This document shows, one piece after another, positions 11,659-26,590 of a stretch of DNA of 64,000 bases; positions within the stretch are counted from its first letter, which is position 1, and each line of letters begins with the position of its first letter. The stretch spans positions 310,001 to 374,000 of the forward strand of contig CALSRZ010000005.1 in assembly GCA_943788895.1 (NCBI GenBank), read 5' to 3'. The stretch comes from an uncultured Pseudomonadales bacterium. GTDB taxonomy: Bacteria > Pseudomonadota > Gammaproteobacteria > Pseudomonadales > Porticoccaceae. The position numbers were made by a program, and so were the translations under genes. The notes under the pieces are model-generated. The model made no database searches. It saw nothing but the letters and a program-made list of their open reading frames with translations, and was not told where the DNA came from.

Positions 11659-14421
11659 TTATCCAATTGTACTTGTGATGGGGGATGGGGGAATTTCTTC
11701 AAACAGCATAGGGCCCTCTAATTGGGAATCTAGCTGGCTATTTGGCTTGGCAGTTGAGAGCGCTATAAGACTGTTGAGTTCGGGAATACAGGAGCCGCAG
11801 TTAGTGCCACAGTTCAATTGCTCGCCCAGCGCCTGAGCAGAATTAGCACCGGCTTCAATCGCTTCGACAATGCGCTTCTCACTGACTTTAAAGCAGGAGC
11901 AGATCAGTCTGCTATCCGGTTTCTGACTGTTGCTGGGCCCCGAGAGCAGCGACCAGTAAGTGTCGATAACACTGTTGTTAAGCAGCGTCTGCATCCAGGT
12001 TTTTGGCGGTAGCGCCTGTTTATCTCGGTGACTAAAAATGGCCAGCTCCATACGATCGTCGGTATAACAAATAAGGCGCTGATCGAGATTCGCCCTATCG
12101 GAAAATTGGGCATAGGCCTGGGGGCAGCGGATAAATCGCTACTAGCTGCAGCCATATAAGTCTGCCAGTTGAAGTCACTGTCCAGTGCGACCTGATAGAT
12201 AAATCCCAGGCTTTCCGGCAGGGGTGAAACCACCCAGTTAATAAAGTCTGAACAGTTAATCTTGTTGCGGCTGACTACAGTGGCCCAACAGGGTGTCTCG
12301 ACTTTTTTCAGATTGGCGCGGCTGTATTTAAATTCTGGCTGCCCGGAGACCGGATCAATAATCGGCGCCACCAGCGCATCGACTCGGGCACTGCTGGCGA
12401 ACTGATCATTCCAATGAATCGGCACAAACAGTTGTTTTAGCTGCATGCCCGCATCGATTTGGGTGATAACTTTTATGCTGCTCTGTTGCGTAGTAATTTC
12501 AGCTAAATCGCCATTCTCTAGGCCGAAATCTTTTGCCGTCTGCGGATGTATAGCAACGGTGGGTTGTTCAATATGGGTCAGTAGTTCAGGGGCACGACCG
12601 GTGCGAGTCATGGTGTGCCACTGATCGCGAATACGCCCGCTATTCAGGGTTAGGGGGAATTTCTCTTCAGACTTACGGCGCAGGGGAAGGCTGGCAGCAA
12701 CCGTTATAAATCTAGCTTTGCCGCTGGGGGTTATAAATTGGCCGCCTTCAAATAGACGCTCGGAGCCATTGGGTTTGGCGGCGGTAACCGGCCACTGAAT
12801 CGGGCTCAGTTGGTCGTATTCTAATTCTGTAATCTCACTTAGGGCACTGATATTAAATAATCTGCTGCCGCCGTTTTTAAAACCGCTAAGCCGGGCGTGC
12901 TCAACAAAAATATCTCGTGCTGACTGGTAGTTAAAGGCATCTTTAAAGCCCATGGCCTGAGCGACCTTAGAGATTATCCACCAGTCTGATTTGGCGTCGG
13001 CTATAGGTGTTACCAGCGCGCGCTGGCGGGAGATGCGTCGTTCAGAGTTGGTTACAGTGCCGGACTTTTCACCCCAGCCACTGGCGGGCAAGAGTATATT
13101 TGCCGTGGTAGTGGTATCGGTCTCGGCGATACAGTCGGAGACAATCACCGTGTCACACTGTTCCAGAGCGGCTTTTACACGATTGGCATCGGGCATACTG
13201 ACCACCGGATTGGTGCCCATAATCCAAATCGCTTTAATTCGGCCATCGGCGACGGCATCAAATAGATCTACAGCTTTAAAACCGGGCTCTTGACTCATAT
13301 TGTCAGCTTTCCAAAATTCCCTGACGGTAGCGATGGTTTCACTGCTGTAGTCCATATGCGCGGCGAGCATATTGGCTAGGCCGCCGACTTCACGACCACC
13401 CATGGCATTGGGCTGGCCGGTAATTGAGAAAGGTCCTGCGCCGAGTTTACCGATGCGGCCGGTGGCCAGATGGCAGTTGATAATGGCATTGCATTTATCG
13501 GTGCCGGTGGCGGATTGATTAACGCCCATAGAGTAAAAAGTAATCGCCTTTTCGGTCTCGGCAAACCACTGATAAAAGGTTTGTAGATCATCTGAGCTAA
13601 CCGCAATTTTCTCTTCAAGTTCGGCCTGGCTGTGGGACAGGGCCTCAGCGAGGGCAGTCTCAAATCCCTCGGTGTGCTGTGCAATATAGTGTTGGTCAAG
13701 GCTGTTAGTTTTGCTTCAGGTAACGGAGTAAGCCATTGAATACAAAAGCATCTGAACCCGGTGCAATCGCCAGATGCAGATCGGCGAGATCACAGGTGGC
13801 GGTTCGGCGGGGATCGATAACCACAACTTTCATCGCCGGATTTTTTTCTTTGGCCGCGGCGATACGGCGATACAGCACTGGATGAGTCCAGGCGGCGTTG
13901 GAGCCGGTCAGCACTAACAGGTCGCACTGTTCCAGGTCTTCGTAGTTGCAGGGGACGGCATCAGCGCCAAAGGCGCGTTTATAGCCAGCCACGGCGGATG
14001 ACATACAGAGTCTTGAATTGGTATCCACATGACCGGTGCCGATAAACCCTTTGGCGAGTTTATTGGCCACATAGTAGTCTTCGGTCAGCAACTGCCCGGA
14101 GAGATAGAAGGCAATTGCGCCGGGGCCATGTTCTTCTCGAATGGTATTTAACCTGTCGGCAACGGTTTCTATCGCGGTTTCCCAGCTGACCGTTTGGCCT
14201 TCAATAGAAGGGTGCAACAGTCGACCCTGACTGCCCATGGTTTTGTCCAGTGCAGCGCCTTTAACGCAGAGTTTGCCTAAATTGGCCGGGTGTTGCTGAT
14301 CTCCGGAGACGGCAATAATCTGGTTATTTTCAACTTTTGCACTGACGCCACAACCCACACCACAGTAGGGGCAGGTTGTTTTTATTTGGCTATCAGTTAG
14401 CAGGTTGTCGCTGTCAGTCAT
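11659..14421 (-). pseudogene. nasA: Assimilatory nitrate reductase catalytic subunit, two frameshifts as read
   Basis: A molybdopterin enzyme that reduces nitrate to nitrite in the cytoplasm. The N-terminus has the [4Fe-4S] site CPYCGVGCGVSAKV with GKLCVKG, then the molybdopterin oxidoreductase core and the C-terminal MGD-binding domain (GRIRDQWHTMTRTGRAPEL). A BFD-like [2Fe-2S] domain ends it (ICSCFKVSEKRIVEAI, NCGTNCGSC). The frame breaks at about 13704, where one surplus T splits KQNNSLDQHY, and at about 12125-12140, where one base is missing near a C run before QAYAQFSDRANLD. Restored length is about 920 residues, normal for NasA with a BFD domain. It lies 10 bases after nirD. Sequence error is favoured over true loss. 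Confidence 0.88.
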
Positions 14422-14796: not shown

Positions 14797-17322
14797 CTAG
14801 GCTGATTTAGCTAAAATTTGTTGGCGTTCTTCTTCGGTGGCGGGTCTTGGCTGGCCGCGCTCTTCGACAAAGATAATTTCACGGTCTTCCGCTTCAGAAT
14901 TTACAAACTGGCGGAAGCGCTTGAGTTTTTCCGGATTTTCAATGGTGGTTTTCCACTCACACTGGTAGGTGTCGACAATATTATTCATCTGATCTTCGAG
15001 CTCGGCGCCTATTCCCAGAGAGTCTTCGATAACCACTTTCTGCAGATATTCCAGACCGCCTTCGAGGTTATCCATCCATACCGAGGTTCGCTGCAGGCGA
15101 TCTGCAGTGCGCACGTAAAACATCAGGAAGCGGTCGATATATTTGATCAGTGTCTCGTCGTCGAGATCGGTGGCAAACAGGTCTGCATGTCGTGGCTTCA
15201 TTCCGCCGTTACCGCAGACAAAAAGATTCCAGCCGTTCTCGGTGGCGATAATGCCAAAGTCTTTTGACTGCGCCTCTGCACATTCGCGGGTACAGCCAGA
15301 GACTGCAGACTTGAATTTGTGCGGGGAGCGCAGACCTTTGTAGCGGTTCTCTACATAGAGTGCCATGGCGACACTGTCCTGAACGCCGTAGCGACACCAG
15401 GTGCTGCCAACGCAGGATTTCACGGTGCGCAGTGCCTTGCCGTAGGCGTGGCCGGTTTCAAAACCGGCTTCGATCAACTCTTCCCAGATAGCCGGGAGAT
15501 GTTGCACGCGGGCACCAAACAGATCGACACGCTGAGCGCCGGTGATTTTGGTGTAGAGCTGGTACTTTTTGGCGACCTGGCCGAGAACAATTAATTTGTC
15601 GGGGGTGATTTCACCGCCTGGAATACGCGGCACGACGGAGTAGGTGCCGTTCTTCTGCATATTGGCGAGGAAGGTGTCGTTGGTATCCTGCAGGCCAACG
15701 TGTTTGTCTTCGAGAACATAGTCGTTCCACAGGGAGGCGAGAATCGAACCAGCGGTCGGCTTACAGATATCGCAGCCGCGGCCAGTGCCGTGTTTTTCAA
15801 TCAGCTCTTCAAAGCTTTTGATCGATTCAACTTTAATAACATGAAACATTTCCTGACGCGTAAAGTTGAAGTGTTCGCACATGGCGGTATTCACTTCCAG
15901 ACCGCGTGCGGCCATCTCATCGTCGACAATATTTTTCAGCAGTGCGGTACAGCCACCGCAACCGGTGCTGGCGGCAGTTTCGGCTTTAACCTCTGCCAGT
16001 GAGCAGAAGCCAGCATCCATGGCACTGACAATATCGCCTTTGCTGACATTGTGGCAGGAGCAGATAGTGGCTGTGGCAGGCAGTGCTGCAGCGCCAAGGG
16101 CGGGTGCTTCACCAGCGTTGTAGGGCAGGATCAGGGTCTGTGGATCGGCGGGCAGATCAATGCCGTTGAGGAAATACTGCAGCAAGGTGTCGTAGTCGGA
16201 ACAGTCACCAACCAATACTGCGCCGAGTAATTTTTTACCATCGGCGCTGACAATCAGGCGCTTGTAGACATCAATGCGCTCATCGCTGAAAGTGTAGGCG
16301 ACAGAGCCTTCTTCTTTACCGTGGGCATCGCCAATCGAGCCAACATCGACACCGAGCAGTTTTAACTTGGTGCTCATATCGGCACCCTGGAAGGCAACGC
16401 TATCATTGCCCAGCTGGCTGACCGCGGCTTCAGCCATACGGTAACCCGGTGCCACCAGTCCAAAAATTCTACCGCCAAACAGGGCGCATTCGCCGATCGC
16501 AAAAATATCTGAGTCGCTGGTTTTACAATGGTAGTCGACTTCGATACCGCCGCGTTCGCCAACAGTTAGGCCGCAGTCGCGCGCCAGTTGATCGTAGGGG
16601 CGAATACCGGCGGAGAAGACAATCATATCGGTGGCCAGTGAGCCACCATCGGCAAACTGCATCACCAGGCGCGTGTCGCCATCGCTGTTTTCTTCAATAA
16701 CCTGAGTGGCTTTGCTGGTGTGTACCTGAACGCCGAGTGCTTCAATCTTGCGGCGCAGCATGGCGCTGCCGCCATTGTCGAGCTGAACGCCCATCAGTCC
16801 CGGGGCAAATTCAACAACATGGGTTTCCAGGCCGAGATTTTTGACGGCGTTGGCACATTCCAGTCCGAGCAGTCCACCACCCACGACCACACCGATTTTG
16901 CGGTCTTTGGCCTGGGCTTGAATCATGCCGAGATCGTCAATCGTGCGGTAGACCAGGCAGGGTTCAAGGTCGTTGCCTTTTACTGGAGGTACAAAAGGGT
17001 AGGAGCCTGTCGCCAGTACCAGTTTGTCATAGGCATACTGTTTGCCGCTTTCGGTGGTGACGATTTTATTATCGCGATCAATGCTCGCGACAAAGTCGCC
17101 AAAGTGCGCTTCAACGCCAAGCTCACGGTAGTGATCTCTGGTGGTCATTGCGAGATCTTCTGGAGTGCGTCCAGAGAAGACTTCGGAGAGATGAACCCGG
17201 TCATAAGCTGGGCGGGTTTCACCACCGATCACGGTGATATGAGCCTCTATTTCTGATGCAACCAGTTGCTCGACATAATGGTGTCCCACCATGCCATTTC
17301 CGACGACGACGACTTTTAACAT
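14797..17322 (-). CDS. nirB: Nitrite reductase [NAD(P)H] large subunit
   Basis: A siroheme enzyme that reduces nitrite to ammonium with six electrons from NAD(P)H. The N-terminal pyridine-nucleotide-disulfide oxidoreductase part has VVVGNGMVGHHYVEQL for FAD and VVVGGGLLGLECANAVK for NAD(P)H. The BFD-like [2Fe-2S] region has CSCHNVSKGDI and STGCGGC, followed by a related RGCDICKP segment. The C-terminal siroheme/[4Fe-4S] region has CVGSTWCRYG and SGCTRECAEAQSKDFG. Length 841 residues is standard. It starts 43 bases after nrtD. It is free of the indels that affect nasA. Confidence 0.97.
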   Translation of the reverse strand: MLKVVVVGNGMVGHHYVEQLVASEIEAHITVIGGETRPAYDRVHLSEVFSGRTPEDLAMTTRDHYRELGVEAHFGDFVASIDRDNKIVTTESGKQYAYDKLVLATGSYPFVPPVKGNDLEPCLVYRTIDDLGMIQAQAKDRKIGVVVGGGLLGLECANAVKNLGLETHVVEFAPGLMGVQLDNGGSAMLRRKIEALGVQVHTSKATQVIEENSDGDTRLVMQFADGGSLATDMIVFSAGIRPYDQLARDCGLTVGERGGIEVDYHCKTSDSDIFAIGECALFGGRIFGLVAPGYRMAEAAVSQLGNDSVAFQGADMSTKLKLLGVDVGSIGDAHGKEEGSVAYTFSDERIDVYKRLIVSADGKKLLGAVLVGDCSDYDTLLQYFLNGIDLPADPQTLILPYNAGEAPALGAAALPATATICSCHNVSKGDIVSAMDAGFCSLAEVKAETAASTGCGGCTALLKNIVDDEMAARGLEVNTAMCEHFNFTRQEMFHVIKVESIKSFEELIEKHGTGRGCDICKPTAGSILASLWNDYVLEDKHVGLQDTNDTFLANMQKNGTYSVVPRIPGGEITPDKLIVLGQVAKKYQLYTKITGAQRVDLFGARVQHLPAIWEELIEAGFETGHAYGKALRTVKSCVGSTWCRYGVQDSVAMALYVENRYKGLRSPHKFKSAVSGCTRECAEAQSKDFGIIATENGWNLFVCGNGGMKPRHADLFATDLDDETLIKYIDRFLMFYVRTADRLQRTSVWMDNLEGGLEYLQKVVIEDSLGIGAELEDQMNNIVDTYQCEWKTTIENPEKLKRFRQFVNSEAEDREIIFVEERGQPRPATEEERQQILAKSA

Positions 17323-17365: not shown

Positions 17366-18232
17366 TTATGCTGCTTCCGGAGCACTAACCTTGTCGGTTT
17401 TTGGCTCAGATTTTGATGCAGATTCAACCTGTTTCGGCTTTGCAGCAGGGTTCTTCTGCTTCTCATAGAGGAAGCGTAAAACTTGCTGACGATAGGCATT
17501 AAATGCCGGGTCTTCAGCCAGTGATAAACGATCGCGGGGACGCTGCAAATTAATATCCAACACTTCGCCGATAGAGGCGGCCGGACCATTGGTCATCATG
17601 ACGATGCGATCGGAGAGCAGGACCGCCTCGTCGACATCGTGAGTAATCATTACCACGGTGTTGCCGAGTCGATGTTGAATTTCCATCAGTGAGTCTTGCA
17701 GGTGCGCGCGGGTCAGCGCATCAAGTGCGCCAAAAGGTTCATCCATCAATAATACTTTTGGCTGCATAGCCAGACAGCGGGCAATACCGACACGCTGTTT
17801 CATACCGCCAGAGATTTCTCCCGGGCGCTTGTGCATGGCGTGATCCATATGCACCAACTTGAGGTTGTGCTCAATCCACTCGCGAATCTCGGCTTTGGTT
17901 TTGGTTTTCTTAAAAACACATTTAACCGCGAGCTCAACATTCTGATAAACCGTCAGCCATGGCAGTAGCGCGTGATTTTGGAAGACAACCGCGCGGTCTG
18001 GGCCCGGCTCATCAACTTCCCGGCCCTCGAGAATAATGCCGCCTTCGGTGGCCTGGTAGAGGCCGGCAATAATATTTAGCACGGTGGATTTACCGCAGCC
18101 GGAGTGACCGATTAACGAGATAAATTCTCCCTGTTGAATGGACAGATTCACATTCTGCAGTGCGCGAAATGGCTCCGCTTCCGTGGGGAATTCAATTCCT
18201 ACCTGACTAATTTCTAGGTAGTTCTTTTGCAT
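17366..18232 (-). CDS. nrtD: Nitrate ABC transporter ATP-binding protein
   Basis: ATPase of the nitrate/nitrite/cyanate-type importer. Walker A is GHSGCGKST, the ABC signature ISGGMKQRVGIARCLA and Walker B VLLMDEPFGALDALTR, followed by the switch His in MITHDVDEA. The C-terminus ends in a Lys/Pro/Ala-rich tail and lacks the NrtA-like regulatory domain of cyanobacterial NrtC, so it is NrtD-like. The ATG at 18232 is preferred because AAGGAAAT precedes it. An upstream in-frame ATG at 18295 would add a low-complexity NNLRNNLRN segment encoded by a short tandem repeat. Confidence 0.93.
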   Translation of the reverse strand: MQKNYLEISQVGIEFPTEAEPFRALQNVNLSIQQGEFISLIGHSGCGKSTVLNIIAGLYQATEGGIILEGREVDEPGPDRAVVFQNHALLPWLTVYQNVELAVKCVFKKTKTKAEIREWIEHNLKLVHMDHAMHKRPGEISGGMKQRVGIARCLAMQPKVLLMDEPFGALDALTRAHLQDSLMEIQHRLGNTVVMITHDVDEAVLLSDRIVMMTNGPAASIGEVLDINLQRPRDRLSLAEDPAFNAYRQQVLRFLYEKQKNPAAKPKQVESASKSEPKTDKVSAPEAA

Positions 18233-18298
18233 AATTATTTCCTTAAAACAAATTCTGGGTTTGTTGCGCAGGTTATTGCGCAAGTTATTGCACAAGGC

Positions 18299-19300
18299 CT
18301 AGCGGAAAATCGCCTGTTTGTCCCAGCTAACACGTTTTTGTAGAGCCAGCATTAAGCGATCCAAAATAAAACCGATAATGCCAATGGTGATTACCGCGAC
18401 CATAATTCGGCCGAGAGAACTGGATGATCCATTTTGGAATTCATCCCAGATAAATTTTCCCAATCCCGGGTTTTGCGCGAGCATTTCAGCGGCGATTAAA
18501 ACCATCCAGCCAGTCGCCAGGGAAAGGCGCAGTCCGGTAAAGATAAGTGGGATCGCTGAGGGGATAACAATGGTCTTGATATAGACCGGCCATGACAGTC
18601 GCAGTACGCGACTTACGTCGATCAGGTCGCGGTCGATACTGGCGACACCGACAATGGTGTTGACCACAGTGGGCCACAGACAGCAGAGCGCGACGGTGAA
18701 TGCCGAGGTTAAAAAGGCTTTTTCAAAGTAGGGGTCATCGCTGACATAGAGTGCTGATACCACCATGGTAACTAGCGGCAGCCAAGCCAGCGGTGACACT
18801 GGCTTGAATGTTTGAATAATCGGATTGACGGCGCTGTAGACTTTTTCGCTAAGGCCGCAGGCGATACCTAGAGGTATGGCAATCAGGGTCGCAATTAAAA
18901 AGCCAAAGGCGACAGTGTAGAGGCTGGTGAAAATTTGATCGAAGTAGGTTGCCTTGCCGGTGTAGGGACGGATTTTTACTTTAGCATCTGGATTTTTAGC
19001 CAGCTTCTTGGCATTGCGTACTTCTTGGCGAACATAAAATGCATCGGCTTTTTCGCGCTCGGCATGATGTTCTTCGATTAATATTTTTGATTGGTTCCAA
19101 ACATCTCCCGGTCCCGGAAACTGACCCAGAGAGGTAACAATATTGCTGGCGGTTGCCTGCCAGAGAAACAGGAACATCACAATCCCGGTTAGCGGTAGTA
19201 CCGCTGCCTTTACCGTTTTTTCCAAAGCGCTTAACAGGTTAGCTACTGTGATCAGAGACTGTAATTTTGCGATCTTGGATGTGATTGTTGCTGTACTCAT
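18299..19300 (-). CDS. nrtB: Nitrate ABC transporter permease
   Basis: A 333-residue inner-membrane permease of the NrtB/SsuC class. It has an N-terminal membrane segment (PLTGIVMFLFLWQAT), a periplasmic insert (FYVRQEVRNAKKL) and the binding-protein-dependent transport domain. The EAA-type loop lies around VSRVLRLSWPVYIKTIVIPSAIPLIFTGLR. GWMVLIAAEML and the C-terminal RVSWDKQ segment are typical. It lies between nrtA and nrtD in the standard order. Confidence 0.94.
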   Translation of the reverse strand: MSTATITSKIAKLQSLITVANLLSALEKTVKAAVLPLTGIVMFLFLWQATASNIVTSLGQFPGPGDVWNQSKILIEEHHAEREKADAFYVRQEVRNAKKLAKNPDAKVKIRPYTGKATYFDQIFTSLYTVAFGFLIATLIAIPLGIACGLSEKVYSAVNPIIQTFKPVSPLAWLPLVTMVVSALYVSDDPYFEKAFLTSAFTVALCCLWPTVVNTIVGVASIDRDLIDVSRVLRLSWPVYIKTIVIPSAIPLIFTGLRLSLATGWMVLIAAEMLAQNPGLGKFIWDEFQNGSSSSLGRIMVAVITIGIIGFILDRLMLALQKRVSWDKQAIFR

Positions 19301-19418
19301 TTTCGGTGCCTTAATTTAAATTCTTTATATTGCTGTCTTAATTAATTCGGTTTTCAAAACAATCGGCAGGCCGGTTTTGGCCTGCCGTTGTTTTCGTTAC
19401 TGCTCGGTTTAAGAACTC

Positions 19419-20807
19419 TTATAGAATTTCGTCCTTAAGACCAATTGGGAATTTCTTCAGGTAATCATTGGGCTTGGAACCGTCGTAGACGATTTCATCA
19501 ATAAAGTGTTTCTGTGGTGAGCGGAAGCCGCTCTCTTTAGTAAACTCCGGAAAATCTGCAGCGCTCACAACACCCTCTTCGATCAATTCCAGTGCCGCAG
19601 TTTTGTAAATATCCGGGCGGTAAACGCTGGCAGCAACATCGAAATACCACTGGTCAGATTTGGGTTCTGAAATCTGTCCCCAGCGACGCATCTGAGTCAG
19701 GTACCAGACTGCATCTGAGTAGTAGGGGTAAGTGGCGAAGTAACGGAAGAACACGTTGAAGTCAGGAACCGAACGCTTGTCACCTTTTTCGTACTCAAAG
19801 GTGCCGGTCATGCTGTTGGCAATTACATCGTAGTCGGCGCCAACATAGTTGCTCTGGGAGAGAATCTTAACCGCGGCAGGACGGTTGGCATTGTTGTTTT
19901 CATCGAGCCATTTAGCGGCGCGAATCAATGCTTTAACCACGCGTGCTGTAGTGTTTGGATACTTCTCGGTGAACTCCTTAGTCATACCGAAAACTTTTTC
20001 CGGGTTGTTCTTCCAGATTTCGTAATCAGTGACTACAGGTACACCAATACCCTTAAATACAGCCTGCTGATTCCAGGGCTCACCGACACAGTAGCCGTAG
20101 ATAGTGCCGGCTTCGAGAGTTGCTGGCATCTGTGGTGGAGGTGTTACAGACAGCAGTGCCTGTGCATCTAATGTGCCGCTGCTATCACCTTTGTGCGGTG
20201 CGTAGTAACCGGGGTGAATATCGCCCGCAGCCAACCAGTAACGCAGTTCATAGTTGTGCGTGGATACAGGGAATACCATACCCATTTTGAACGGCTTGCC
20301 TTCGGCGGTAAATTTGTCAACCACTGGCTTCATGTAGTCCGCTTTGATCGGGTGAACAGGCTTGCCATCTTCCATCGGCACATAGGGTTTCATCTGCTTC
20401 CATATATCGTTGGAGACAGTGATCGCATTACCATTAAGATCCATACTAAAGGGTGTGACGATATGTGCTTTGGTGCCGTAGCCGATGGTTGCCGCTAGAG
20501 GCTGGCCGGCAAGCATATGTGCGCCGTCCAGTTTGCCGTCGATAACGCCGTCGAGCAGTACTTTCCAGTTGGCCTGGGCTTCGATGGTCACATATAGACC
20601 TTCGTCTTCGAAGTAACCGTTTTCATAGGCGATGGCGATAGGTGCCATATCCGTTAACTTAATAAAACCGAATCTGAGTTCGTCTTTTTCAGGTTCGCCC
20701 AGCTCTGCTATTGCGGAGGTGCCATTTAACATCAGGCCTGCAAAGGCCAATGTTTTAAGTGTGCGAGAAAGCCCGCGTTTAAATTTGTTTGATGTAGCGG
20801 AGTGCAT
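19419..20807 (-). CDS. nrtA: Nitrate-binding periplasmic protein
   Basis: The substrate-binding component of the nitrate importer, in the CmpA/NrtA family. A Sec-type signal peptide is visible ([19 protein letters not shown]). The mature part begins [20 protein letters not shown] and has [37 protein letters not shown] and [12 protein letters not shown], all family-conserved. Length is 462 residues. A GAGG ribosome site precedes it. The 5' leader holds a terminator and sigma-54-like promoter, so expression should depend on nitrogen limitation and on NasT. Confidence 0.95.
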
Positions 20808-20836: not shown

Positions 20837-20884
20837 AAAAAAAATGCCCGCCTACTATCCGTGGTAACGGCGGTAGGCGGGCAT
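20837..20884 (-). terminator. Leader terminator of nrtA transcript (putative NasT antitermination target)
   Basis: In the RNA sense, a 12-base arm ATGCCCGCCTAC pairs with GTAGGCGGGCAT around a 17-base loop, followed directly by eight U. A smaller hairpin (CTCAT-CGCTG-ATGAG, 20900-20914) and the word GGGTAACGATGCCC precede it. A strong terminator inside the leader makes sense only if conditionally read through. The ANTAR protein NasT is encoded just upstream. The GGGTAACGA-[A/T]-GCCC word recurs in the porin leader. Confidence 0.8.
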
Positions 20885-20944
20885 CGTTACCCGGTGACGC
20901 TCATCAGCGATGAGGTCTTGCATTGCAGTGCGTATAAGTAACTA

Positions 20945-20960
20945 TTCAATAACTGTGCCA
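20945..20960 (-). promoter_or_regulatory. Putative sigma-54 promoter of nrtA operon
   Basis: In the minus-strand sense the sequence reads TGGCACA-GTTA-TTGAA, close to the sigma-54 -24/-12 consensus TGGCACG-N4-TTGCW. It sits immediately before the leader hairpins, so a start about 12 bases downstream would place the whole antitermination region in the transcript. NtrC-type activation is inferred. Confidence 0.6.
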
Positions 20961-21085
20961 GTTATTTAAATTAAGTCGAAAATAGTTTTTTGCGGGAAAA
21001 CAGGTTAAAAACAGGGGAAAAATACAAAGTATTGGAAAAAAACACGGCGAAGCGTCATCTGTTGAGGATGATCAGGCCTAGCATA

Positions 21086-21142: not shown

Positions 21143-22369
21143 TTATCTGTTCCGAGTTGGCACGCTGGGGCTGACCATCAGGTCGCTGCCAAGCTCAATC
21201 CTGTCATTAAGCATCCAGGGTTCGGCATGAATACCTTCAGGCTTGGAGTCCTGCTCGGGGAAGTTCAACCCTGCCCGAGTGGCGGCCTCACGGTAGAGGT
21301 CGCTGCGGAAACATTGCTGTGCCAGAGAGGCCATCTTGTCGCAATCAACCGGCTTGCCGAGAAGTGGAGTAAATTGTTCAAGCATTGATTCAGCCTGTGA
21401 ACGCCATGGGAAACCGGCATGGTGGCTGGAGAAAACATGGAAGTTGGAGCGACTTCGGGTAATCTTCGAGCGTTGCTGAATAAGCTCGCCGGTCAGCGGT
21501 GGACGCAGGTAGTCGGCGGGAAGATCCAGATATTCTGGTCGCGAGAGGATATCGACGGTGGTCTTGCGATTGTCCATATCGGCGAGCCATTCACAGGCGG
21601 CCATCAGTGCCAGTCGCAGGCGCAAATGAGTCGAGGGGTTTCGCGTGTGCCATGATTCCAGTACACCGAGAACTTTTTCCGGTGCGTTATTCCATATTTC
21701 AAATCCGGTGGTGGCCATAATGCCAACACCGTATTCAACGGCAATGGTGTTCCAGGGCGCGCCGACACAAAAGCCATCGATAACGCCCTGAGCCAGACTG
21801 TCGACCATCTGTTCCGGCGGCAAGACAATAATCCGCACTTCGGTATCCGGATCAATACCACCAGCGACCAGCCATTTTCTGAGCAGCAATGTGTGGCTGG
21901 AGAAAGAGTGCACGGTGGCAAAGGTCAGTCTGGTATCCGGGTTTTTATTTAATACTGCCCGCAATGATTGTGCTGAGGTCAGGGCATCTTTTGGCGGCTG
22001 ATCAGAATCAGCGCAGTTATTCATTTTGCTCCATAGCGATGAGGATACTGTCACCCCATTGCCATTTAGAGAGAGCACCAGCCCGGTGATCATTGGTGCG
22101 CGAATACCGGCCGCGCCCATGGTTGTCACCAGCGGCATAGGTGCCAGCATCTGGCAGGCGTCGAAGGTGCCGGCAATGGTTTTGTCGCGAATATTGGCCC
22201 AGGAAACTTCTCTATGCAGGGTCACATTTAAGCCAAACTTTTCATACAACCCGAGATGCTGTGCAACAATCAGCGGGGCGCTATCGGTGAGGCGCATATA
22301 GCCGAGATTGAGATGGTCGAGCTCGGCGGTGGGTAAGTTTTTATTGATTTGTATATTCATAACCGGCAC
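21143..22369 (-). CDS. nasS: Nitrate sensor NasS (NrtA-like without signal peptide)
   Basis: A 408-residue CmpA/NrtA-family protein (LNLGYMRLTDSAPLIVAQHLG, FDACQMLAPMPLVTTMG, GFCVGAPWN, EIWNNAPEKVLG). It lacks a signal peptide, as expected for the cytoplasmic nitrate sensor that sequesters NasT. In known NasST systems nitrate binding releases NasT to antiterminate the nitrate operon. The GTG at 22369 overlaps the nasT stop by one base; an ATG nine bases in is an alternative. Position next to nasT and ahead of nrtA supports the assignment. Confidence 0.92.
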   Translation of the reverse strand: MPVMNIQINKNLPTAELDHLNLGYMRLTDSAPLIVAQHLGLYEKFGLNVTLHREVSWANIRDKTIAGTFDACQMLAPMPLVTTMGAAGIRAPMITGLVLSLNGNGVTVSSSLWSKMNNCADSDQPPKDALTSAQSLRAVLNKNPDTRLTFATVHSFSSHTLLLRKWLVAGGIDPDTEVRIIVLPPEQMVDSLAQGVIDGFCVGAPWNTIAVEYGVGIMATTGFEIWNNAPEKVLGVLESWHTRNPSTHLRLRLALMAACEWLADMDNRKTTVDILSRPEYLDLPADYLRPPLTGELIQQRSKITRSRSNFHVFSSHHAGFPWRSQAESMLEQFTPLLGKPVDCDKMASLAQQCFRSDLYREAATRAGLNFPEQDSKPEGIHAEPWMLNDRIELGSDLMVSPSVPTRNR

Positions 22370-22968
22370 TAGGAATTTTTATTAAGTATTTGTACAACGG
22401 ATTTGGCCGCCTGAGGCAGGCTCTGATTGCTGTCCATAGAAAGGTTGCGCAACACTTTGTGGGCGCTGTCTTCACTGATTCCCTGTTGATCCATCAGCAG
22501 GCGTTTGGCTTTGTCTATCACCGATAGACTTTCCAGCTGAGTTCTTGTGGTATCCAGTTTTTGGCGCAGTGACTGAAAGGACTTAAATTGCGCCATGGCA
22601 ACGTCGATAACAGGTTTTACTTTTTCCGTGTCTACGCCACCCATCATATAGGCGGTGACACCGGCATCTACGGCATCTTTAATAAAGTCGGGATCTTCCT
22701 CTTCCGAGAACATCACTACCGGTGTGGGATTGTGAGCATTGATCACCGACAGGCTGTCGAGAACATCACGGCCCGGGGACTGTAAATCAATAAGGATAAT
22801 ATCCGGTTTGAGCTGTTCGATTTGAAACAGTAAACCTGTTGCAGAGGGCAGTATGGAAATAACCTCAAAGCCGTCTTGAATAAGTTTTTCTTCAACCCGG
22901 GCAGAGCGCTGCGGAAGGTCATCCACCAACATCACACGAGCGTGATTTGTTTCTGCCACTGAGGTCAT
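22369..22968 (-). CDS. nasT: ANTAR-domain antiterminator NasT
   Basis: A 199-residue response-regulator-like protein. The receiver-like half has ARVMLVDDLPQRSARVEEKL and DIILIDLQSPGRDVLDSL. The C-terminal ANTAR RNA-binding part has KRLLMDQQGISEDSAHKVLRNLSM. ANTAR proteins bind paired hairpins in leaders and prevent terminator formation. The ATG at 22968 is chosen because the longer frame starts inside the porin terminator. It overlaps nasS by one base, the conserved nasT-nasS pair. Predicted targets are the nrtA and porin leaders. Confidence 0.93.
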   Translation of the reverse strand: MTSVAETNHARVMLVDDLPQRSARVEEKLIQDGFEVISILPSATGLLFQIEQLKPDIILIDLQSPGRDVLDSLSVINAHNPTPVVMFSEEEDPDFIKDAVDAGVTAYMMGGVDTEKVKPVIDVAMAQFKSFQSLRQKLDTTRTQLESLSVIDKAKRLLMDQQGISEDSAHKVLRNLSMDSNQSLPQAAKSVVQILNKNS

Positions 22969-23004: not shown

Positions 23005-23040
23005 AAATAAAAAAGGGGCGCAGATCATATCCACGCCCCG
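23005..23040 (-). terminator. Terminator after the porin gene
   Basis: GGGGCG (RNA sense) pairs with CGCCCC around a 13-base loop and is followed by a U-rich run interrupted by one A. It lies 30 bases after the porin stop and separates it from nasT, so nasT needs its own promoter or read-through. Confidence 0.75.
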
Positions 23041-23071: not shown

Positions 23072-24277
23072 TTAAAACTTCATATTCAACGTCAACCAGA
23101 CTTTATCGGTATCAGTTGCATGGGTGTCTGCAGAGTAGCTGGCATATTTAAGCTGTGCAGAAAGGTTTTTATTGATTTTGTAGGTGCCGACAATATCCAG
23201 TTCCGAACCTAGATCTGCGCCGCCTTCGTCTGCAGTAAATTTATGGTAGAAAACAACAACGGGGATACCAGAAATTTTACCGGCTACTTTTAAGTAGCTG
23301 TCTGCCAGTCCTGTTCCAGGGGTGCCGAGGAACTTATCAGCCCAACCCTGGAACTTGTGCAATGTCGCTAGTGGGGTTTTAAAGCCAACACCTTCATCAC
23401 TGCCAAGCAATTCATAACCCAGAGCAACAGTTACCTTTTTGACCGGTATGCTGAGCTCAGCCATCAGGTAATCAGTGTCGAATGAGGCAGGGTTGTCGCC
23501 ATAGTCTGACTGCGAGGCGATACTGGCGGCCAATGTTGCTTTACCAAGTTTGCCTTTGTAGTCGATACCGTAAGTACTGGTCGAGTTAGCAGCCGCATTG
23601 TCGAAATCGAGAAGATAGGCGTAACCCTTAAATGAATGTCCTTTAGCCGGTGAGTAAGAGGCTAACAGCGCATGGGAATCAGACCCCCACTGCTTGGCCT
23701 GAACTGTGCTGTCGATAGGGCCAAAGATACGGTTTACGTTCCAGATGTAACTGTAGTCGATTTTCACCGAATGAAAATCTGGCAGGCTGACAGTTAATGC
23801 ATCATAAGTTTGCTCATTCTGTCTCCAGCCAACACCACCGACAAAACGCTGACCGGCGTGCAAAATACGCTGACGACCAAGCTTGGCGCTGTAGGATGAA
23901 CCTGCATAGCCGACAAAAGCCTGGTTCATATCTGTACCCTTGGGGTCGGCGACGATTGGGTAGCCAGCATTACCATTGGTTGGCGTCTTGTAGCTCTCGT
24001 TACCAATAACGGTGACATAGTCTACTTCGATACCTGCAGTAAACCCATTGTAGGCAGCTGATTTCCAGGTTAGGCGAGATTTCAGTGTAGAGGCGCCGGC
24101 ATCTTTATCGATACCATCCTGATCGACCATTTCGTAGCGGTAACGGAAAGATGTTGAAGCGCTGCCATCAGTGAACATCTGGCTGACACTGGTTGCATCT
24201 TCGGCAGAGGTTGCGACAAAGGGCTGCAGGCATAGAAGCGCCGCTGCAGCGGTTGAGATGATGCGTGTGTGGTTCAT
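23072..24277 (-). CDS. Putative nitrate-regulated outer-membrane porin
   Basis: A 401-residue beta-barrel protein. It has a signal peptide (IISTAAAALLCLQPFVATSA), many alternating amphipathic strands (FRYRYEMVDQDG, AKLGRQRILHAGQRFVGGVGWRQNEQTYDAL) and a C-terminal Phe (WLTLNMKF), as required for barrel assembly. It resembles the alginate-export-like porin superfamily. A nitrate or anion role is inferred from position next to nasTS and from its leader, which combines a sigma-54-like promoter and a terminator like that of nrtA. The sequence alone cannot give substrate specificity. Confidence 0.8.
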   Translation of the reverse strand: MNHTRIISTAAAALLCLQPFVATSAEDATSVSQMFTDGSASTSFRYRYEMVDQDGIDKDAGASTLKSRLTWKSAAYNGFTAGIEVDYVTVIGNESYKTPTNGNAGYPIVADPKGTDMNQAFVGYAGSSYSAKLGRQRILHAGQRFVGGVGWRQNEQTYDALTVSLPDFHSVKIDYSYIWNVNRIFGPIDSTVQAKQWGSDSHALLASYSPAKGHSFKGYAYLLDFDNAAANSTSTYGIDYKGKLGKATLAASIASQSDYGDNPASFDTDYLMAELSIPVKKVTVALGYELLGSDEGVGFKTPLATLHKFQGWADKFLGTPGTGLADSYLKVAGKISGIPVVVFYHKFTADEGGADLGSELDIVGTYKINKNLSAQLKYASYSADTHATDTDKVWLTLNMKF

Positions 24278-24313
24278 AGTAAATCCTATTGTGAAAAACG
24301 AAGGTCAAAAAAC

Positions 24314-24353
24314 AAAAAAAGCCCGTGCACAAATTTTCGTTTGCGCAGGGGCT
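24314..24353 (-). terminator. Leader terminator of porin transcript (putative NasT target)
   Basis: In the RNA sense a 14-bp stem with one mismatch and one G-U pair (AGCCCCTGCGCAAA against TTTGTGCACGGGCT, loop CGAAAA) is followed by seven U. The word GGGTAACGAAGCCC at its 5' side matches the nrtA leader at all but one base. A terminator before the coding region implies conditional read-through. Confidence 0.8.
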
Positions 24354-24389
24354 TCGTTACCCAGCAGACTGCAATGTCGCTAATCACAA

Positions 24390-24405
24390 TACAATATCCG
24401 TGCCA
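24390..24405 (-). promoter_or_regulatory. Putative sigma-54 promoter of porin gene
   Basis: Minus-strand sense reads TGGCACG-GATA-TTGTA. The -24 half is a perfect consensus; the -12 half has GT for GC. A start about 12 bases downstream would transcribe the whole leader terminator, the same geometry as upstream of nrtA. Confidence 0.6.
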
Positions 24406-24539
24406 AGCCAATAAAATCAATAACTTAGCTGATTTTGAGGGCGCTTAAGGAATGGTTTTGAAACAAGCTGGTGCGAGACTTTTTGGTTTGGCTATATCTT
24501 GGGGCAGTTTTTATTCTGGATGATTTACGTTTAGGAATC

Positions 24540-24580: not shown

Positions 24581-25861
24581 TTATTGGCCAAAGCTGGCTT
24601 TGAATATATAGAAGAAGATAATACAGAGACCGGCACCTGCAGGCAAAGTGACCAGCCAGGATAGGAAAATCGATCCCACCATGCGCAGATTCAATGCGCC
24701 AATACCACGGGCTAAACCAACGCCGAGAACCGCACCAACCAATGTGTGTGTGGTTGAGATTGGCAGGCCGGTACCAGAGGCAATAACCACAGTAGCAGCG
24801 GCGCCCAATTCAGCAGCAAAGCCACGGCTTGGTGTCAGCTCGGTAATCTTGCGGCCGATGGTGCCCATCACTTTAAAGCCGTAAGTGGCGAGGCCTACAA
24901 CGATTCCGCCACCACCCAAGAGTAGTATCCACGGAGGCATAATACTCTTTGCGGTAATATCACCGCCGGAAGAGACAATGCTTACCACGGCGGCCAGAGG
25001 GCCTACAGCGTTAGCCACATCGTTTGAACCGTGGGCAAAGGCCATAGCACAGGCAGTAAAGATCATCAGGACGGCGAAGACGCGCTCAACATTGGCGAAG
25101 CGATTATCTGTTTCCAAGCTCAGGTCACGCTTAATTCGGGATAATAGGTAGCTGCCAATTATCGCCACAACAATACCGACCATTGATGCGATCAGTGCAG
25201 AGTCTGCAAAGCTCAATGCCATGCCGTTATCTTTAAAGACGTGCTTGAGACCTTTTAGCAGGGTCACCATGGCGATAAGAAAGCCAACGAAAAACATATA
25301 GATAGGAATATAGCGTTTGGCTTTTGTAAAGGGGTCGTCCTGAAGCAGGATAAGGCGTTGAACACTGCGGAAGAGCGCGAAAGACAGGGTACCTGCTATC
25401 ACTGGAGAGACCACCCAGCTGGCGACAATAGTGCTCACCTTGCCCCAATGAACCGCATCCACAGAAACGCCAATCGCCGCAAAGCCGACAATCGCACCGA
25501 CAATAGAGTGGGTTGTCGACACTGGCCAGCCCATAAAGCTGGCCACCATCAGCCATGTGCCTGCAGCCAGCAGCGCGGATAGCATGCCAAATACCAGATC
25601 ATTGGGTCTTTCGGCAAAGATCGCGGAATCGACAATGCCTTTGCGAATGGTCGAGGTGACTTCGCCGCCCGCCAGATAAGCGCCGGCGAACTCAAATACC
25701 ATGGCGATAAGAATCGCCTGTTTAATGGTCAGCGCCTTGGAGCCAACCGAGGTACCCATTGCATTAGCGACATCATTTGCGCCGACGCCCCAAGCCATAA
25801 AAAAGCCGGCCAGCGCGGCAATGATAATGAGAATAGCCCCGTATTCAGTAAAAAATTCCAT
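24581..25861 (-). CDS. pit: Inorganic phosphate transporter, Pit family
   Basis: An inner-membrane phosphate (or sulfate) permease driven by the proton gradient. Both inverted PHO4 signature repeats are present: GVGANDVANAMGTSVGS near the N-terminus and AHGSNDVANAVGPLAAV in the second half. About ten hydrophobic segments are seen. GWPVSTTHSIVGAIVG and GLPISTTHTLVGAVLG are the paired family motifs. The ATG at 25861 gives the family N-terminus (MEFFTEYG); a TTG five codons earlier is possible. It follows the DUF47 gene, a frequent pairing. Confidence 0.93.
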   Translation of the reverse strand: MEFFTEYGAILIIIAALAGFFMAWGVGANDVANAMGTSVGSKALTIKQAILIAMVFEFAGAYLAGGEVTSTIRKGIVDSAIFAERPNDLVFGMLSALLAAGTWLMVASFMGWPVSTTHSIVGAIVGFAAIGVSVDAVHWGKVSTIVASWVVSPVIAGTLSFALFRSVQRLILLQDDPFTKAKRYIPIYMFFVGFLIAMVTLLKGLKHVFKDNGMALSFADSALIASMVGIVVAIIGSYLLSRIKRDLSLETDNRFANVERVFAVLMIFTACAMAFAHGSNDVANAVGPLAAVVSIVSSGGDITAKSIMPPWILLLGGGGIVVGLATYGFKVMGTIGRKITELTPSRGFAAELGAAATVVIASGTGLPISTTHTLVGAVLGVGLARGIGALNLRMVGSIFLSWLVTLPAGAGLCIIFFYIFKASFGQ

Positions 25862-25909
25862 AGTCCCGGTTCCCAAAAGTGATTATTTTCTAGTGGATTT
25901 TTCTAGTTA

Positions 25910-26590
25910 TTATTTTGCTAGAAGTAGCTCAACTTGGTTGCCAATAAGCTCGGCGGTATCGGCCAGACCACCGATCTGATCAATGATGTTATACATAAAA
26001 ATCACATCAATGGGTGATAGATCAGCTTCGATATTAAATAATTTCTTACGTAATTTCTGCTCTTTTTTGTCGACTTTCTGCTCTTGCGCAGCCAGATCAC
26101 GAATTAGCTTTTTGACAAATTTTACTTCCGATCCGGCAAACCCGGTTTCGAGCAGTTCATCGAGTTCATTGATCGCGCCATGGGCTTTGCGGCAAGTCTC
26201 TGTGGCGCTCTCAGCAAAACCAATAAAGTCATCGTGAAGTTTTTTCGGTATAGCCATTTTTCGACCCAGAACAATACCGCATATATCTTTGGTGAGATTG
26301 GCAATATTGTCCTGCTGGGTAATGATGCTTAGAAGGTCGCCCCTTGAAACCGGCATAAACAAGCTTTTAGGCATATGCATGCGAAATTGTTTTTTAAGGT
26401 CGTCGGCACTCTGTTCTTCGGCGCTGATTTGATCAAAGACCTGCGTTGCCTTGTCCCAATTATCTTCAAATGTCGCCTTTAGGAAAGCGTCTAAAAGGTC
26501 GACGCACTTTATTGCGGCTGCCATATGATTCTGCAGTGGTTTGACGGGGGACACCCCAAAGATATTGGAAATCGAGTTACTCAATGCCAT
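25910..26590 (-). CDS. DUF47 / PhoU-like Pit accessory protein
   Basis: A 226-residue helical protein of the TIGR00153/DUF47 family (PLQNHMAAAIKCVDLL, FRMHMPKSLFMPVSRGDLLSIITQQDNIANLTKDI, DVIFMYNIIDQIGGLADTAELIGN). Such proteins resemble PhoU and usually precede a Pit permease, which they are thought to regulate. That arrangement is seen here with a 48-base gap to pit. Confidence 0.92.
   Translation of the reverse strand: MALSNSISNIFGVSPVKPLQNHMAAAIKCVDLLDAFLKATFEDNWDKATQVFDQISAEEQSADDLKKQFRMHMPKSLFMPVSRGDLLSIITQQDNIANLTKDICGIVLGRKMAIPKKLHDDFIGFAESATETCRKAHGAINELDELLETGFAGSEVKFVKKLIRDLAAQEQKVDKKEQKLRKKLFNIEADLSPIDVIFMYNIIDQIGGLADTAELIGNQVELLLAK

Follow-up and report, generated by a model that had tools for sequence, protein, structure and literature searches.

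A Porin Gene Beside nasTS With an nrtA-Like Leader Switch: a Predicted Entry Pore for Nitrate and Nitrite

Organization of the Porin–nasTS Locus

The window, i.e., the whole stretch of 64,000 nucleotides that was analysed, came from an uncultured marine bacterium of the family Porticoccaceae. A porin gene, the regulatory genes nasT and nasS, and genes of nitrate and nitrite assimilation were located on its minus strand. The features are given below in the direction of transcription.

24389–24406, minus: sigma-54-like promoter of the porin gene, TTGGCAC-N5-TTGTAT, recognized by sequence and sigma-54 spacing
24367–24378, minus: candidate upstream hexaloop hairpin GAC-ATTGCA-GTC (P1 candidate), present also in the near-identical locus L009
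24349–24362, minus: hexaloop hairpin GGGTAACGAAGCCC (A1, G4), a P2-type ANTAR element, recognized by its fold
24318–24355, minus: intrinsic terminator that shares an arm with the hexaloop hairpin; U tract, 24314–24320
23072–24277, minus: porin open reading frame, 401 amino acids, outer-membrane protein, predicted 18-strand barrel
23015–23039, minus: second terminator, between the porin gene and nasT, GGGGCG...CGCCCC followed by T6
22369–22968, minus: nasT, receiver plus ANTAR antiterminator (PF03861, 58.7 bits; PF00072, 44.4 bits)
21143–22369, minus: nasS, nitrate/nitrite sensor of the NMT1/NrtA-like family (PF13379, 245 bits)
20944–20961, minus: sigma-54-like promoter of nrtA, TGGCACAGTTATTGAAT, recognized by sequence
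20839–20893, minus: nrtA leader, a hairpin/terminator switch (model R1, E 2.5e-7; fold z −6.2)
19419–20807, minus: nrtA, nitrate-binding protein (PF13379, 319 bits)
18299–19300, minus: nrtB (Pfam)
17366–18295, minus: nrtC (Pfam)
14797–17322, minus: nirB (Pfam)
11904–14421, minus: nasA, split over two frames, named by similarity, with a homolog in L009
10795–11652, minus: cobA, named by similarity, with a homolog in L009

The start of nasT was placed at an internal ATG, and its product could be aligned with EutV and Rv1626. A cognate ANTAR protein for the leaders described below is encoded in the same genome by this gene (22369–22968). In the 99% identical relative G061 (locus L009), nasA occupied a single frame of 926 amino acids; the split in the window is a frameshift or an assembly error. 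A Pit-type phosphate transporter gene and a small neighbor (24581–26590, minus) lay immediately upstream of the porin gene, and pit also adjoined the porin in L009, L010, and L017. A two-way terminator-like inverted repeat was found in the gap between nrtA and nrtB (19364–19387). The second strong terminator (23015–23039) left scant room for a nasT promoter; hence, expression of nasTS may require read-through out of the porin gene.

Predicted Structure of the Porin

The porin was predicted to be an OprD/AlgE-like 18-strand barrel. The AlphaFold2 model, obtained with a 40-row alignment, had a mean pLDDT of 84.4 and 18 long strands arranged in a barrel, the fold of the OprD/Occ family. The closest solved folds were OccK/OprD channels and AlgE, with identities of 12–16%, and the VIA-align Z values were 29.9 for a BenF-like porin, 29.6 for OccK9, and 27.4 for AlgE. 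The NCBIfam Opr-porin model NF033923 gave 36.6 bits for the porin, which was under its cut-off of 150 bits. The Pfam model Alginate_exp (PF13372) scored 41.7 bits against a cut-off of 25.2, and the best stretch covered residues 98–165 only.

Five arginines (R45, R47, R137, R144, and R152) were invariant in 40 porin rows, some of which had no link to nasT. Two of them sit in the loop after strand 5, which we take to be the place of constriction in OprD-type pores; the model was weak at residues 148–152. The net charge of the whole protein was negative (−6 for the window porin), and the mean was −18.9 for nasT-linked porins (29 rows) versus −13.1 for the loci classed below as "other" (44 rows). 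Since nasT-linked porins were the more negative on average, the charge of the whole protein lends no support to a selection of anions.

The Porin and nrtA Leaders

From 5' to 3', the porin leader consisted of the sigma-54-like element, GGGTAACGAAGCCC, the terminator, and the porin start codon. An earlier note on this DNA had placed a sigma-54-like promoter so that the terminator is transcribed, and this arrangement was confirmed, as the element at 24389–24406 precedes the terminator at 24318–24355. GGGTAACGAAGCCC alone folded into a stem of four base pairs with the hexaloop AACGAA, which has A at position 1 and G at position 4. The terminator fold had an energy of −21.2 kcal/mol (z −4.3), and none of 200 shuffles was equally stable. 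The 3' arm of the hairpin, GCCC, doubles as the 5' arm of the terminator; hence, the two structures are mutually exclusive. The porin leader therefore has the A1/G4 hexaloop overlapping the 5' arm of a terminator that marks ANTAR/NasT targets. The earlier note had set the conserved word ahead of the terminator. Both word and terminator proved real, but the word overlaps the terminator through the shared GCCC arm.

The corresponding word of the nrtA leader, GGGTAACGATGCCC (20879–20892, minus), agreed with the porin word in 13 of 14 letters, in line with the near-identity claimed earlier. Its terminator had a fold energy of −29.2 kcal/mol (z −6.2). The minimum-energy fold of the nrtA word gains an inner A–U pair, which leaves a 4-base loop; the word was nevertheless counted as the same hexaloop. 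The exact sequence GGGTAACGAWGCCC occurred at only two sites of the bacterium's own genome, in the porin and nrtA leaders, with one further site at one mismatch. A covariance model, R1, was built from relatives, one of them 98% identical. In the window, R1 matched the porin leader (24314–24363, E 2.6e-8) and the nrtA leader (E 2.5e-7), and all other matches had E values of at least 1; across the own genome these two were the only matches at E ≤ 0.01. The Rfam scan of the window yielded no match at the gathering threshold.

A 9-base word was found in opposite orientation in the two leaders (CATTGCAGT / ACTGCAATG; porin leader, 24363–24407; nrtA leader, 20893–20937, minus). Such a word had 9–11 bases in L009, L020, L021, and L025 and at most 7 in the other 15 of 19 loci. 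Its role might be that of a DNA-binding site or of an element pairing in trans.

Covariation and the Upstream Hexaloop

Covariation was evaluated in an alignment of 45 leaders (24 porin and 21 nrtA), in which three rows were extended by 3 bases and the scanner-positive nrtA leader of L031 was omitted. In the terminator, 96.3% of the cells were paired, and double-change cells numbered 62 versus 17.3 in shuffled alignments and at most 13 in slid controls. In the hexaloop stem, 86.8% of the cells were paired (41 distinct leaders), and 10 double-change cells were counted versus 5.8 in shuffled alignments. This weaker signal is explained by two of the five pairs being near-invariant and the outermost pair being unpaired in 21 of the 41 distinct leaders. 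The three-arm column set read G-C-G in 31 leaders, A-T-A in 6, and mixed in 8; such joint variation of three arms is expected if one arm serves two structures.

Candidates for an upstream hexaloop P1 (A1, G4) were present in 2 of 24 porin and 2 of 21 nrtA leaders, versus 3–5% in shuffled sequences. A relaxed search returned 3 of 24 porin and 6 of 21 nrtA leaders, versus 12–15% in shuffled sequences; the excess in nrtA leaders (6/21 versus 15%) is at most weak. The porin leader of the window has one P1 candidate, although P1 is not conserved among its relatives. For this reason, we liken the leader to an ANTAR switch in its mode of action without classing it as dual-hexaloop.

Distribution of the Switch Across Porin Homologs

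The homolog set comprised the best 80 of at least 589 loci encoding a relative of the porin. In 29 of these best 80 loci, nasT adjoined the porin, and the same-strand order porin–nasT–nasS was found in 27 of the 29; no nasS was seen in L044 and L087. Leaders were scanned for a hexaloop with A1 and G4, at least three G–C pairs, and a 3' arm within a terminator followed by a U tract; L018 had no upstream sequence and was excluded from the counts. The scanner was positive at 24 of the 29 nasT-linked porin leaders versus 0 of the 50 others among these best 80. Dinucleotide shuffles were positive in 2 of 1450 cases for the nasT-linked leaders and 3 of 1580 for all leaders, and the background was 68 of 7380 segments of 381 bases (both strands, all loci). 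Ahead of the nasT, nirB, nasA, or pit genes of the porin loci, the scanner gave no match. In all five nasT-linked loci that it missed (L033, L049, L066, L080, and L087), weaker forms of the switch were seen by eye: A replaced G at loop position 4 in L066 and L080, a clear U tract was lacking in L049 and L087, and one of the five had a weaker stem. When pairs independent on the porin tree were compared, with scanner misses scored as misses, 5–7 of 8 had the leader tracking nasT, and none showed the opposite (median p 0.03, range 0.016–0.063).

The strict sigma-54 pattern occurred at 21 of 29 nasT-linked loci, 3 of 6 assimilatory loci without nasT, and 2 of 44 "other" loci. An NtrC-like site (at most 3 mismatches) was found at 8 of 27 loci versus 3.3% in shuffles, with L025 and L061 dropped; this apparent site is only suggestive. 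One metagenome-assembled genome (SI075_bin53) carried two porin–nasT loci with unlike leaders, L013 and L014, which represent a duplication or two mixed strains.

The stretches of L016, L017, and L018 contained porin, nirB, and cobA, and nasTS, nrtABC, and nasA were absent from the stretch examined. The corresponding genomes (G056–G058, completeness not given) had no ANTAR match. The NrtA query, which also detects NasS in G059–G062, had no match in G056–G058, and the NasA search there returned nothing above 31% identity. The L016 and L017 leaders retained the sigma-54 element, the loop G4 and the terminator stem were gone, and R1 had no match on them at E 5; the L018 stretch begins within the porin, with the leader outside it. 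In a quick tree, the three loci branched off at different points among the nasT-linked ones, so loss probably happened at least twice. Judged from these leaders, porin, promoter, and nirB would have outlived NasT in two relatives whose switch has decayed. In L017, a formate/nitrite transporter gene (PF01226, 219.7 bits) lay between the porin and nirB, indicating nitrite as a substrate. An open reading frame between this transporter and nirB (L017, 10387–12111) resembled, by eye, a fused PP2C-type phosphatase/protein kinase. The prediction of the earlier note that the porin belongs to the NasS/NasT regulon was thus supported across genomes, and its proposed comparison of leaders beside nasTS gave the switch in 24 of 29 and weaker forms in the remaining five.

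Association of the Leader With Porin and nasT

NasT was surveyed in 293 genomes of the order, 92 of which had a match, and the best 30 loci of the 92 matched genomes were read. A porin lay directly upstream of nasT in 8 of these best 30 loci and did not in 22. The strict scanner was positive before the porin in 7 of the 8 loci that have one and within 400 bases of nasT in 1 of the 22 without. The leader of L203, where a porin adjoins nasT, was detected under relaxed limits only, and the relaxed scanner was positive on a poor stem in L217, a nasT locus without porin. In G272, the leader stood directly before nasT with no intact porin; the stretch between them ends like a porin C-terminus in a non-significant alignment (E 0.62), which suggests an eroded porin. 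According to these sequence surveys, the leader is a companion of the porin, not of nasT alone.

At E 0.001, R1 had 30 matches in 25 of the 293 genomes of the order, located before porin (4), nrtA (8), nasA (11), nasT (1), distant NrtA-like genes (3, 29–31% identity), a distant NirB-like gene (1, 35%), and other genes (2). It was silent in G179, G203, G304, and G311, although a porin adjoins nasT there, so the model is narrow. The search of the genus with R1 gave one match (G012, E 0.006) without an adjacent nas gene. A long open reading frame with a C-terminal ANTAR-like stretch (36% identity to NasT) was seen near an R1 match in G262 (L156, 1731–2996), and a second match 2 kb away in that genome lay upstream of a NasA-like gene (L168). 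This frame reads like a NasR-type one-component regulator.

Genomic Neighborhoods and Substrate

Nitrate, nitrite, or cyanate genes flanked 54 of the 80 porins (best 80 of at least 589) versus none of the 20-kb control stretches (20 stretches, 13 relatives). The marker identity limits behind these counts were fixed after the neighbor table was viewed, and six of the 80 loci, together with the window, supplied the marker proteins; without the six source loci, 50 of 74 porins were flanked, and among the loci not beside nasT, 21 of 45. By marker, the 80 loci comprised 29 with nasT, 7 assimilatory without nasT, 16 respiratory, 2 cyanate, and 26 with none. Family models confirmed NarG (2352 bits), NapA (1558–1587 bits), and cyanase (above cut-off), and Pfam models fitted NarH, NarI, FNT, and MoaA near porins; the names NnrS and NarK came partly from reading sequences by eye. 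The porin directly followed narI in L048, L063, and L085 and was near NapA in L030. In L019 (8873–11206) and L071 (3860–11242), a porin homolog was found near cyanase and a distant NrtABC-like transporter, and these surroundings suggest cyanate use. The 26 loci without a marker included L029 (NnrS-like, moaA), L074 (narK-like, moaA), and five with amtB. These five were Colwelliaceae loci, and amtB was also present in 2 of the 20 control stretches.

The dedicated nitrate or nitrite porin predicted by the earlier note gained support from the assimilatory, respiratory, nitrite-only, and cyanate neighborhoods. Homologs with neither leader nor nas neighbors, which that note had counted against the idea, do exist and make up 44 of the 80 loci ("other"): 26 had no marker, and 18 adjoined respiratory nitrate genes or cyanase. 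Judging by gene content, the latter 18 would widen the nitrate-porin idea and not refute it.

FNR-type boxes were found upstream of the porin in Colwellia-type members, at 13 of 50 loci without nasT (expected 0.014 per locus) and at 0 of 29 with nasT. The 13 loci were L029, L034, L036, L038, L056, L059, L060, L065, L070, L072, L082, L083, and L088; most belong to one clade and are hence not independent. Two boxes, 41–60 bases apart, were present in 11 of the 13.

Discussion

The leader carries the same presumably nitrate-responsive RNA switch as that of nrtA, and many relatives stand beside nitrate, nitrite, or cyanate genes; hence, the protein is probably a dedicated pore for small nitrogen-containing ions. 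The reading that we favor, with a probability of about 0.75, is that the window porin is a NasT-controlled pore of the outer membrane, dedicated to the entry of nitrate and nitrite and regulated in two steps. In the first step, sigma-54 RNA polymerase, probably with NtrC, would initiate the porin transcript under nitrogen shortage. In the second step, the leader would adopt either the terminator (off) or the hexaloop hairpin, whose shared arm was seen in the sequence and in the covariation. As in Paracoccus, nitrate or nitrite would free NasT from NasS, and NasT would then bind and hold the hexaloop hairpin, so that no terminator forms and the porin is made alongside NrtABC. The pore would let nitrate and nitrite pass and feed the periplasmic substrate to NrtA. 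Its relatives may serve Nar/Nap respiration, nitrite-only assimilation, and cyanate under other regulators.

The name of the Pfam match would make the protein an exporter of alginate or another polysaccharide. The PF13372 score exceeds the cut-off and AlgE is included in the fold matches; the match is, however, limited to residues 98–165, the identity to AlgE is 12–15%, OccK/OprD chains outrank AlgE, and no alginate genes were seen by eye among the open reading frames of positions 1–36000 of the window. This reading is hardly credible and was set aside on account of the short Pfam stretch, the low AlgE identity, and the higher rank of OccK/OprD. It is also very unlikely that the leader acts as a plain terminator or as an attenuator answering to something other than NasT. 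The upstream P1 of the dual-hexaloop motif is missing and Rfam had nothing at gathering in the window, but the same element stands upstream of nrtA here and of nasA in other families of the order; it is tied to the presence of nasT across porin loci, and two loci from genomes with no ANTAR match have it in decayed form.

The element might instead serve autoregulation of nasTS, with the porin merely the first gene of the operon and not necessarily nitrate-specific. The single-strand order porin–nasT–nasS at 27 of 29 nasT-linked loci, where the scanner detected no separate leader before nasT, and the leader immediately ahead of nasT without an intact porin in G272 fit such an arrangement. At nasT loci without porin, however, the leader was scarce (1 of 22 versus 7 of 8 with porin, best 30 loci), which weakens the autoregulation reading; the G272 gap resembles a porin C-terminus and may be an eroded porin (non-significant, E 0.62), a strong terminator separates the porin from nasT, and the porin is retained without nasTS at nirB-only loci. 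We regard autoregulation as unlikely. It is likewise rather doubtful, though to be reckoned with, that the porin serves under nitrogen stress as a general pore for anions or small nutrients, its link to nitrate genes reflecting timing and not cargo. Pores of the OprD/Occ fold are often permissive, 26 of the 80 loci (best 80 of at least 589) lack a strict marker, and amtB lies near the porin in five Colwelliaceae loci, yet in 2 of 20 controls too. Against a general pore, the porin recurs at assimilatory, respiratory, nitrite-only, and cyanate loci, to which small nitrogen anions are common and nitrogen starvation is not.

Beyond the dedicated pore of the window, the homologs may well represent an undescribed porin family for small nitrogen anions (nitrate, nitrite, and probably cyanate) in marine gammaproteobacteria, wired by the regulator of the local pathway; this broader reading is somewhat favored. 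The proposed wiring would consist of NasT switches and sigma-54 for assimilation, FNR-type boxes in Colwellia-type members, and nar/nap clusters for respiration. The passage of nitrate and nitrite through the outer membrane is usually ascribed to unspecific porins. If the reading is true, the family would fill a gap at the outer membrane in several nitrogen pathways, and a NasT-switched porin would indicate a specific entry step, which could be limiting for uptake at the nitrate concentrations of the ocean. The porin and nrtA leaders are also a natural set for asking how few hairpins an ANTAR switch needs.

Comparison With Known Systems

The predicted 18-strand barrel is common to the window porin, the OprD/Occ channels, and AlgE; the window porin differs from them in its 12–16% identity, its score below the Opr cut-off, and its many relatives among nitrogen-anion genes. 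OprP-type phosphate porins are nutrient-anion porins induced by the regulon of their own nutrient, as proposed for the window porin, and presumably belong to another family and answer to another regulator. Leader control by NasS–NasT is already known, and an outer-membrane porin as its target would be new among the literature matches listed. The nirBD genes of Pseudomonas aeruginosa are reportedly another leader target of NasS–NasT. None of the matches listed, which may not include all earlier work, described a porin controlled by NasT or dedicated to nitrate, and the phrase "nitrate porin" did not occur in the full-text literature searched. The available parts of PMC6759348, PMC7261876, PMC4410273, PMC7787665, PMC10732223, and PMC4827864 describe no such porin.

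In Paracoccus denitrificans, the NasS–NasT complex comes apart in the presence of nitrate or nitrite, and the nasA leader RNA is a binding target of NasT, according to the available portions of the two reports (PMC3795266; PMC5424462). The word "porin" is absent from the main text of both (PMC3795266; PMC5424462). As described in these portions, nasTS lies there beside nitrate assimilation genes and the leader has hairpins and a terminator, as in the window; the Paracoccus targets are transport and reduction genes, whereas the window porin carries its own copy of the switch. An outer-membrane protein would thereby join the known NasT targets. In a Bradyrhizobium nasT mutant, the "outer membrane protein" gene blr1311 was up 2.31-fold, i.e., in the opposite direction, in the accessible part of that study (PMC6759348).

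ANTAR proteins hold hexaloops against terminators, as set out in the sections available of PMC3369931 and PMC8934654. Of the 11 RNA-contact residues of EutV named in the available text of PMC8934654, five are kept in NasT in our own reading of the alignment (equivalents of Lys147, Lys149, Glu160, Arg168, and Met172; chain numbering shifted by two); NasT has His at Tyr164 and differs at Arg142, Lys143, Asn173, Arg175, and Arg177. In vivo, both hexaloops of the EutV system, P1 included, were reported in that text to be needed (PMC8934654). As far as these excerpts describe it, the dual-hexaloop motif of EutV, NasR, and AmiR has an A1/G4 hexaloop with a terminator-sharing 3' arm (P2), which was also found in the window leaders. 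Unlike in EutV, NasR, and AmiR, P1 is not conserved in window-type leaders, which nearly match the minimal binding unit with a single hexaloop put forward in the portion available of PMC8934654.
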